Part shown: positions 4,170 to 59,985 of the stretch, piece after piece
Layout of the letters: each line of letters opens with the position of its first letter
Position numbering within the stretch: the stretch's first letter is position 1
Assembly: GCA_029552745.1 (NCBI GenBank)
Contig: JAKPDK010000184.1
Location: 124,001-188,000 of the forward strand
DNA from: Candidatus Hydrogenedentota bacterium
GTDB taxonomy: Bacteria; Hydrogenedentota; Hydrogenedentia; Hydrogenedentales; SLHB01
Length of the DNA: 64,000 nt
Direction: 5' to 3'
Translations under genes and position numbers: made by a program
Notes under the pieces: generated by a model
Databases searched by the model: none
Told to the model about the DNA's origin: nothing
What the model saw: the letters and a program-made list of their open reading frames with translations, nothing else

Positions 4170-4505
4170 ATTTAATCCATTTCCCTTTCTGTCATACGGA
4201 AAGAAATGCCTGGGTCCCCCAGATTGCGCTCACGTGTTCCAAAACACCTACACCCCTGGATGGGTACATCCAGAACTCTTCCGCTTTTTACTTCAACACA
4301 GATTGGATAATTGTACTCTTTCGGCTTCAAAGATTCAAAGTTCTGTATTCGTTCCGTATCTTTTACTCGTTTCCTTTGTTCTTTTACGTAATCGCTGATG
4401 GGTGTTACGTAAGGTTTTGGCGTGAGCACCGGGATGTCGCACTTCTGCAAGATAGGCGTAGCGAGTCGCGCCCTATCCCGGCTTTGGGTCATTCCCCTAA
4501 CACCC

Positions 4506-4548
4506 AGGGGATTGCCACGTCGTGCCTAACTGCACTCCTCACAATGAC
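4506..4548. repeat. Partial copy of dispersed 140-bp palindromic element
   Basis: The right half of the dispersed element described at 13723, ending in CACTCCTCACAATGAC with the inner AGGGGATTGCCACGTCGTG. Sequence to its left (4436-4505) is only loosely like the matching half. It sits upstream of a block that also occurs at 59785-59985. Confidence 0.65.
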
Positions 4549-4580
4549 AGGGGTCGGGCAATACGGTAATAGGACGACGT

Positions 4581-4683
4581 GATACGAAAAAACAAGTAAT
4601 CCCAAATACGCAGGAGGTTCGTAAATGGCTCAATCGTATTTCAGGGTGCCATGCGTCGGTGCTTTTTGATTAATGACCTTCAT
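4581..4683 (-). pseudogene. Degenerate copy of a small duplicated ORF
   Basis: On the minus strand, ATG at 4683 (GAGG eight bases upstream) opens a frame encoding the residues APTHGTLKY, then TGA at 4632-4630, then AIYEPPAYLGLLVFSY. The block at 59785-59889 encodes PATHGTPNYLRAIYEPVEYL and onward without interruption. The two blocks align over about 33 codons with no gap, and some differences are synonymous. This suggests a small protein-coding gene in which this copy is broken. A structured RNA is the alternative reading. The family is not recognised. Confidence 0.4.
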
Positions 4684-4755
4684 GGGAAAATCCTCTCTTT
4701 GATTTCTCCTTCAACATGACAAAGCGTGCCAAAGGTACTGGACTTATACAGACTC

Positions 4756-4784
4756 TGGAAAAAATCTTTAATTTCGTCTAAAAT
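4756..4784 (+). promoter_or_regulatory. Sigma70-like promoter of small ORF
   Basis: TGGAAA, 17 bases, TAAAAT. The same geometry occurs at 59957-59985 (TTGACA-N17-TAAAGT). Both copies have a shared block (AAAGCGT, then CTGGAC) ending exactly 12 bases before the -35 box. Matching position in the two copies makes this more credible than its consensus score alone. Confidence 0.5.
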
Positions 4785-4841
4785 GGCTTACAGGACAATT
4801 GAGTTGCAGAGAAATCTGTGGGAGAAAAGGGGAGAGTTAGC

Positions 4842-4994
4842 ATGGCTCACATTCGACAAATAACAAAAACAGCGCCCGCAAAAGCCGTCAATTTTGAGGA
4901 AATCGTCTTCGCCGGCAACGGTCTTATCGGACTCGCGCTCAGTGCCGTTAATCTAGTCAACACATTAAAAAGTCTACTTACATCCAACACCTAA
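4842..4994 (+). CDS. Small 50-residue protein with hydrophobic core
   Basis: ATG is preceded by GGGGAGAGTTAGC, a strong ribosome-binding site seven bases away. The 50-residue product begins MAHIRQITKTAPAKAVNFEE and has a moderately hydrophobic centre (IVFAGNGLIGLALSAVNLV). A promoter with conserved geometry lies upstream. The upstream module is shared with the small ORF at 60052, but the two proteins are not similar. The family is not recognised. It could be a membrane-associated small protein or leader peptide. Confidence 0.5.
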   Translation: MAHIRQITKTAPAKAVNFEEIVFAGNGLIGLALSAVNLVNTLKSLLTSNT

Positions 4995-13862: not shown

Positions 13863-14078
13863 AACTGGGCGTATAACCCCAGGTCTGTATAAGTCCCGTA
13901 CTTTGGCACTTTCTACTTGCTTTTGGGAGCACTTTCTGTGAACACTTTCCGTTAAAGTCATAAGGAAAGCGCACGGAGACGCTGCTGCCACAGGTCTGTC
14001 TCAGTTATTAACAATTCTCTTAGGATACCTGCGAATTCCTTCATCGGTGCACTGCGCCGCATTGAGCTGCATACTACT

Positions 14079-47620: not shown

Positions 47621-47859
47621 AGATGGCCACGTAGCGCGAGAAAACGTCGTGCAAAGATGGAACTCTCCCAGAGCCCCTAAGAAAAACCGAAGGTGGCTCA
47701 GATATACTCATGGCGGGCGCACGTTTGCGCCTTCTACGTCTTCAACGGAAAACTCTCACTCTCGAATTGCTCCCAAGAACAAATCGAACGTGTCAAGGGT
47801 GCCCGGCTCATGCAATTGTTTGACTTTTTGGAAGCAAATGTATAGGCTAATGGCTCTGT

Positions 47860-47938
47860 CGGGGCGTAGCGCAGCCCGGTTTAGCGCGCTTGGTTCGGGA
47901 CCAAGAGGTCGGTGGTTCAAATCCACTCGCCCCGACCA
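47860..47938 (+). tRNA. tRNA-Pro (anticodon CGG)
   Basis: Acceptor CGGGGCG / CGCCCCG, D arm GCGCAGCCCGGTTTAGCGC, anticodon stem CTTGG / CCAAG with loop TTCGGGA (anticodon CGG), T arm GGTGGTTCAAATCCACT? truncated here to GGTTCAAATCC, discriminator A and encoded CCA. It lies about 100 bases before the first attC-like site. Confidence 0.95.
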
Positions 47939-59352: not shown

Positions 59353-59612
59353 TTCCCCGCTCCTTGACAGTTGCGAATGGGAACCACCCCCACACCTTTT
59401 CTCCAGAATGCCCCTCTTCCTAAAATTAGTCAAGAAAAAAATGATTCCGAGACTGAAATGAATACAGCCTTTTTTCCCCGAAGGTTTCTCTTATCACCCA
59501 ATAAGTACTTGGCGTTTTGTCAATTTCACCACTATCGACGCCTTTTTGTGTATAAGTTCACATACGTTTGGCACTACATTGAAGAGGTAGACTAGCACTT
59601 ATGCGCCCGGTT

Positions 59613-59756
59613 GTCATTGCGAGGGGCGAGTCGCCGAAGCAACGAAGCAATCCATTCAACCGCGCAGCGCAAGAGGGCGTCGGACAGGGGTTAGGGTAAC
59701 GTCCGGACACCTGAGGGGATTGCCACGTCGTGCATAACGGCACTCCTCGGAATGAC
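59613..59756. repeat. Dispersed 140-bp palindromic element, full copy
   Basis: GTCATTGCGAGGGGCGAGTC to CACTCCTCGGAATGAC, inner arms CAACGAAGCAATCC and GGGGATTGCCACGTCGTG, central CGCGCAGCGCAAGAGGGCGT. Same class as 13723 and 47478. It precedes the duplicated module at 59785-60156. Confidence 0.85.
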
Positions 59757-59784
59757 ACCGCGGGGGGATGCATCGCGGCGGGAC

Positions 59785-59889
59785 TTAGTAGGTAAAAACG
59801 CGTAATCCCAAATACTCAACGGGTTCGTAAATGGCCCGAAGGTAGTTCGGGGTACCATGCGTCGCTGGCTTTTCCTTAACGACATATAT
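59785..59889 (-). CDS. Possible small ORF duplicated at 4.6 kb
   Basis: Minus strand frame encoding VVKEKPATHGTPNYLRAIYE, then PVEYLGLRVFTY and TAA. It aligns without gaps with the block at 4581-4683, which has a TGA inside. The start is unclear (ATA at 59889 aligns with ATG in the other copy; TTG at 59910 is open). Family not recognised. Could instead be a structured RNA. Confidence 0.35.
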   Translation of the reverse strand: MYVVKEKPATHGTPNYLRAIYEPVEYLGLRVFTY

Positions 59890-59956
59890 GAAAAGCCCTA
59901 TCTTCCTCAACCCACGCTAACAAAAAGCGTCAGAGATGCTGGACGAATGCATTTTG

Positions 59957-59985
59957 TTGACATTCTTGCTCTTAACCTGTAAAGT
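59957..59985 (+). promoter_or_regulatory. Sigma70 promoter of small ORF
   Basis: TTGACA-N17-TAAAGT; consensus -35 and near-consensus -10. CTGGAC ends 12 bases upstream of the -35, as in the copy at 4756-4784. Drives the small ORF at 60052. Confidence 0.75.

Follow-up and report, generated by a model that had tools for sequence, protein, structure and literature searches.

The window analysed, a stretch of 64,000 nucleotides, contains two copies of a short unit, very probably a MITE whose parent is an IS481-like insertion sequence (IS) of 1086 bp, with insertion that would be targeted to promoters. From the standing insertions, we infer that this IS lineage recognises promoters. The IS481-like enzyme family and site-specific IS are already known; a promoter-targeting IS lineage would be what is new.

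The preliminary description had reported the same ordered unit at two loci: a palindromic element, about 45 bp, an alignable block, CTGGAC, 12 bases, a −35 box, 17 bases, a −10 box, and a small ORF. This order was indeed present at both loci (Table 1). The unit is duplicated as described, but it begins earlier, with an inverted copy of the right end that starts at 4344 and at 59549. The stretch of 12 bases comprises the 7 terminal bases of the element and a random 5-bp target duplication; the right ends of the element read ...ACTTATACA (ending at 4750, copy 1) and ...GAATGCA (ending at 59951, copy 2). The promoter, formerly considered a part of the module, lies outside the element, with its spacer and downstream positions at about 0 bits in 116 copies, and the small ORFs, regarded as cargo, are host DNA beside the insertion point. 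Neither of the two small ORFs (50 and 34 aa) had a match in the Pfam search.

Table 1. Coordinates of the putative MITE copies in the window and of the adjacent features
Feature	Positions	Strand	Remarks
Copy 1, putative MITE, 407 bp	4344–4750	+	Left end begins TGTATTCGTTCC
Palindromic (REP-like) hairpin within copy 1	4506–4549	+	From sequence; common to most copies
Predicted host promoter after copy 1, −35 TGGAAA	4756–4761	+	5 bases past element end
Predicted host promoter after copy 1, −10 TAAAAT	4779–4784	+	17-bp spacer from −35
Small ORF after copy 1 promoter, 50 aa	4842–4994	+	Host sequence
Decayed copy	13886–14031	−	Right flank runs into a further REP-like stretch
Decayed copy	47688–47814	+	Followed by ATTGT, TTGACT-17-TAGGCT, and tRNA-like sequence; model match E = 1.9e-4
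Copy 2, left target-site duplication TTTTG	59544–59548	+	
Copy 2, complete non-autonomous element (putative MITE), 403 bp	59549–59951	+	Left-end match C102:183549-183575, right end, 5-bp duplication
Copy 2, left terminal inverted repeat TGTATAAGTTCACATACGTTTGGCACT	59549–59575	+	Also matches parent right end, inverted
Copy 2, right target-site duplication TTTTG	59952–59956	+	
Predicted host promoter after copy 2, −35 TTGACA	59957–59962	+	Outside element
Predicted host promoter after copy 2, −10 TAAAGT	59980–59985	+	17 bp past −35
Small ORF after copy 2 promoter, 34 aa	60052–60156	+	Host sequence, not cargo

Copy 2 aligned to positions 1–46 and 1039–1079 of the parent IS, while the right 66 bp of copy 1 aligned to positions 1021–1086. 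The flanks of copy 1 (AGTTC/GACTC) agree at only 2 of 5 bases; its target duplication is lost. The sequence model described below found four places in the window: 4596–4750, 59802–59950, 13886–14031 on the minus strand, and 47688 to about 47814. No promoter was seen at the right flank of the minus-strand copy; the sequence behind the copy at 47688 (window positions 47820–47890) was recognised by eye and is presumably a tRNA-like gene. REP-like hairpins of the GTCATTGCGAGGAGCG...GCAATC type were present in each of the two complete-length copies (59613–59646 and 59714–59757; 4506–4549). Short extra matches to the 44-bp hairpin occurred apart from the block (e.g., C23:273319 and C95:10849), and the hairpin seems to belong to a repeat family of its own, which would have invaded the MITE.

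The genome of the window (4.36 Mb in 188 contigs) was searched for further copies, as had been proposed together with listing what follows each of them, and the recurrence of the unit exceeded chance by a wide margin. BLAST of 4506–4994 gave at least 47 matches, with 40 of 235 candidates scored; apart from the query itself, they ended at or before query base 257, ahead of the promoter. A 25-mer pattern of the right end matched 83 times, versus 0 for the reversed-pattern control. A sequence-only model of the block, built from 39 copies, detected at least 125 relatives at E ≤ 0.001 (150 of 774 candidates scored), a few of these places being ends of intact IS. tRNA genes, ORFs, and other sequence lie behind them, and the followers vary from copy to copy, which bears out the earlier suggestion that the upstream unit is mobile independently of what follows. 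A total of 133 places were pooled; 116 of them, with no more than 5 mismatches to the right-end 25-mer, were used for further analysis, and 17 were dropped. Among 59 related genomes from its family or order, none was matched by model R1 with stricter filters; thus, the element is patchy, and sister species provide no close empty sites. Contig C3, considered as a candidate autonomous element, was rejected as an ordinary small contig.

The ends of the element are inverted (TGY...RCA), and its target duplications are 5 bp long. The inverted right end, TGYATAAGTTYACAAACSTTTGGCACT, was located about 400 bp upstream of many right ends; as a left-end pattern, it had 48 matches in the genome and none in the controls. 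Left ends were identified in 64 of 124 copies. In 30 of these 64, the flanking 5-mers matched at 4 or 5 of 5 positions, whereas 1.7 were expected by re-pairing. Several contigs broke off 139–146 bases into one of the two ends of the element, the pattern that an assembly shows when it is interrupted by a recent, identical repeat. Two longer contig ends overlapped by 141 identical bases, yielding a 1086-bp IS with one long ORF, and when 7 left contig ends were compared with 7 right ones, perfect 5-mers assigned a unique partner in six cases, each an IS copy split by the assembly. When three of the non-autonomous copies were aligned to this parent, the left 44–46 bp were shared by two and the right 42–66 bp by all three. 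The unit thus has the terminal repeats of the 1086-bp IS, target-site duplications, no transposase gene, and a high copy number, as is characteristic of MITEs.

The parent IS encodes a transposase of 346 aa, the frame of which runs on the plus strand into the right terminal repeat. Domains rve_3, rve, and HTH_28 were identified above the Pfam cut-offs, and HTH_32 and HTH_23 below them. The best NCBIfam model was IS481 with 176.3 bits, below its curated cut-off of 224, so "IS481-like" is used here as a label only; the relatives of the ISKpn28 type are annotated as "IS481-like element ISKpn28 family transposase". A PDB sequence search with the transposase returned almost only integrase cores of the retroviral type. 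About 30 N-terminal residues with an invariant Gly precede the part covered by the IS481 model (columns 1–31 of alignment A2); they are a candidate for target contact. In the tree of 31 transposases, the element grouped with the copy from a Nitrosophilus plasmid (99/97), though the rooting and the long, frameshifted rows L230, L236, and L248 make this tree useless for dating the insertion habit.

The flanks of the 116 right ends had a common layout. Conservation was high up to ...GGAC[TT/GA]ATACA and then dropped to 0.00–0.07 bits at five positions. Past these, a −35 box (T93 T83 G78 A61) was followed at 17 or 18 bases by a −10 box, and the sequence beyond was random. Left ends did not share this layout: among 41 left ends with few mismatches, none faced a promoter outward at offset 5. 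Since the promoter lies outside both the element and the duplication, it pre-dates the insertion.

We propose that promoters are recognised by the transposase, which most likely docks on sigma/RNA polymerase bound there and inserts at its upstream edge, a step for which we consider the chances about evenly balanced. Because the element has no second gene, the transposase itself would find the promoters. The constant distance to the −35, the variable spacing, and the sigma70-like profile of the −10 fit promoter DNA with the polymerase bound. The right end would be joined beside the −35, which puts the junction at about −41 to −37 relative to the start site; such a site would be safe, as both the gene and the core promoter are left unbroken. 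The MITE copies would spread with the transposase supplied by intact IS.

The main alternative, possible though distinctly less probable, is that the transposase reads the −35 (TTGA) in duplex DNA without RNA polymerase. The −35 is indeed an anchor at a fixed distance, and its first T is the most constant base of the flank (93%). TTGA alone, however, is far too common to explain the sites, and a proper −10 was also present: with a score of at least 3, it was found at the right offset in 98 of 116 copies versus 3–9 of 116 at six control offsets. Its base frequencies were T87 A99 T47 A66 A56 T95 (109 of 116 copies), and it stood at a variable spacing from the −35 (17 bases in 48 copies, 18 in 47, and 16 in 3). 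Moreover, sites with a poor −35 often had a strong −10.

Less probable still is random or intergenic insertion followed by survival at this spot only, either because insertion elsewhere is harmful or because the element end helps the promoter. Old MITE copies do pass through selection, and the right ends were followed by a tRNA gene in 10 of 116 cases and, in 76, by an ORF on the same strand that encodes 100 aa or more and starts 35–400 nt away. Such a filter is hard to reconcile with a precision of one base: scored with untrained textbook weights, promoters reached a score of at least 8 at offset 5 in 72% of the 116 copies, versus 9% at offset 4, 6% at offset 6, and no more than 2% at the other offsets tested. 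Recent insertions already show the register, as six of seven right ends of recent IS copies lay in it at a promoter-like pair (two of these with a weak −35 or −10). IS copies in prophage, plasmid, and toxin-antitoxin loci, which are seemingly dispensable, kept the same register, and neutral insertions elsewhere, which should be common, were rare. The clearest exception in the genome is the recent right end in contig C23 (L053), which had perfect CAATA duplications and no recognisable promoter and lay about 20 bases before an ATG.

Relatives of the transposase, mostly with 38–50% identity, were found in Patescibacteria, Gammaproteobacteria, and on a Campylobacterota plasmid, ISKpn28 being one of them. 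Right ends from all loci outside the genome of the window were pooled into 58 distinct sites, which retain some chance pattern matches (e.g., L192:590, L169:2311, and L227). At offset 5, 35 of the 58 scored at least 8 and 43 at least 5, while at each of the other offsets from 0 to 21, no more than 3 scored at least 8. No promoter at offset 5 was found at L146, L172, and L173. Two distant IS481-like elements, L252 (with its twin L253) and L255, the only distant rows tried that had clear ends, had 7- and 6-bp duplications, respectively, and no promoter at the insertion. The habit of inserting next to a promoter thus seems not to cover the whole IS481 family, these two controls being a small set.

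The outside sites also bear on the idea that the transposase gene obtains its stop codon from the target. Its frame stays open up to the final base of the element (ACA NNN NNT TGA), and TTGA would provide an in-frame TGA. This TGA was present at 21 of the 58 sites but absent from 37; in addition, MITEs keep the pattern although they have no transposase product, −35 boxes of the TTGC type are frequent, and the −10 is left unexplained. We therefore regard this explanation as very improbable.

A right end of this kind was found in 1082 of 5426 complete E. coli genomes. Perfect 5-bp duplications flanked the element at 10 of the 17 distinct Enterobacterial sites, and 13 of the 17 had a −35/−10 pair with a 17-bp spacer directly after the five bases; several of the targets are homologous hok/sok loci, so these sites are not fully independent. 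The promoter sites included sokX, sokB, hokD-sok, the timP-sseA interval, and a site beside ppiC. No promoter was found at yegH, at L193 (plasmid), at L194, where the flank looks rearranged, or at the first tandem copy of L182. Many copies were located before the promoters of Sok antisense RNAs of hok/sok loci (L262, L263, L191, L267, L189, L195, and L196).

In E. coli K-12 MG1655, sokX and sokB are uninterrupted, and the counterparts of the duplicated bases occupy positions −41 to −37 relative to the annotated RNA at both loci. For timR of K-12, the computed best match was 362 bases upstream from the annotated start; an almost identical copy at −40 to −36 was seen by eye and excluded from the computed results. 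At least 80% of the joined sokX site was present in one place in 4106 of 5426 E. coli genomes, and as much of the joined site beside ppiC in 3962 of 5426. Empty sites in thousands of genomes indicate that the promoter pre-exists and that the insertion is the newer event.

One reading of the block, which goes back to the preliminary description, is that a conserved regulatory module carries a mini-ORF on the minus strand or a structured RNA; this now appears highly improbable. MKVIKGKAPTHGTPKYV-like frames are kept in some copies; however, the start triplet was ATG in only 14 of 39 copies, and the frames ranged from 5 to 31 codons, so minus-strand coding was rejected as an artefact. Only the last 53–66 bp of the element are homologous to the 3′ end of the transposase gene, which reads in the plus direction. 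Nor is the element a mobile promoter carrying its own −35 and −10: the promoter does follow the element nearly always, but its boxes lie past the 5-bp duplication, the spacers show no conservation, in contrast to the 72–83% similarity of most element copies, and the empty sites of E. coli already contain the promoter, so this explanation was rejected.

Bacterial IS are usually thought to break or activate genes and to land with little selectivity. Tn7 and Tn7-like elements insert at a fixed distance and in one orientation, with 5-bp duplications and TGT...ACA ends, and require TnsA, TnsB, and TnsC together with a target selector; the IS described here, in contrast, has 1086 bp with room for one long ORF and a single gene. 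The yeast retroelements Ty1 and Ty3 insert at safe sites just upstream of the transcription starts of Pol III genes, using different enzymes and a different polymerase. The IS lineage resembles them in safe-site insertion upstream of transcription start regions, and its base-precise insertion at the promoter edge would be a bacterial counterpart of their strategy, accomplished by a single small transposase without helper proteins. Classical IS481 of Bordetella, which shares the broad transposase family with our IS, has a 6-bp target of the CTAG type.

Among the known IS481-like elements, ISKpn28 of Klebsiella and E. coli is close to ours, with a full-length transposase homologue of 41–42% identity. 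It is 1096 bp long and has TGT...ACA ends, 5-bp duplications, and a right end five bases before the −35; no difference in insertion habit from our IS was found. In the passages considered from four articles (PMC8796155, PMC10746255, PMC5343135, and PMC6908951), ISKpn28 is tabulated, cited with mgrB disruption, or placed upstream of a prophage holin gene, and promoter targeting is not mentioned. Passages on IS481 in two articles (PMC9208149 and PMC11774165) do not mention it either, and PMC12086927 deals with another IS. No report of promoter-targeted insertion by an IS was found in term searches of open-licence papers.

The ISAjo2 group of the IS1202 family offers the nearest precedent. Its members are described as inserting five bases away from the XerC site, always in the same orientation and with duplications of 5 bp, and the authors suggest that the transposase contacts bound XerC (PMC10132070). 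Our IS shares with this group, as described there, a single transposase, 5-bp duplications, TGT/ACA ends, the fixed five-base distance, and one orientation. The target of the ISAjo2 group, however, is the XerC side of dif/pdif, whereas our IS stands at promoters of the sigma70 type, and the transposases differ in length as well (441–457 aa versus 346 aa). Accordingly, neither a dif-like target nor a transposase of the IS1202-family size was found for our element.

If each insertion marks a promoter, the copies would provide natural promoter maps, useful in uncultivable bacteria, Patescibacteria included. As a relative, ISKpn28, is widespread in E. coli and Klebsiella, laboratory E. coli already offers a direct way to test the idea, and the transposase might serve to insert DNA immediately ahead of active promoters. 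If the proposed targeting is true, roughly a hundred promoters in the genome of the window have a transposase-binding end at about −41, and the transposase could co-regulate them.

The right end occurred in two main forms, GGACTTATACA and GGACGAATACA, which differ at positions −7/−6 from the element end (T60, T60 versus G29, A32); they may be subfamily marks. At L044 (3053–3118), two right ends were located 41 bp apart, the second one past a CCCAC-TTGTC stretch, which suggests an insertion beside an existing end.
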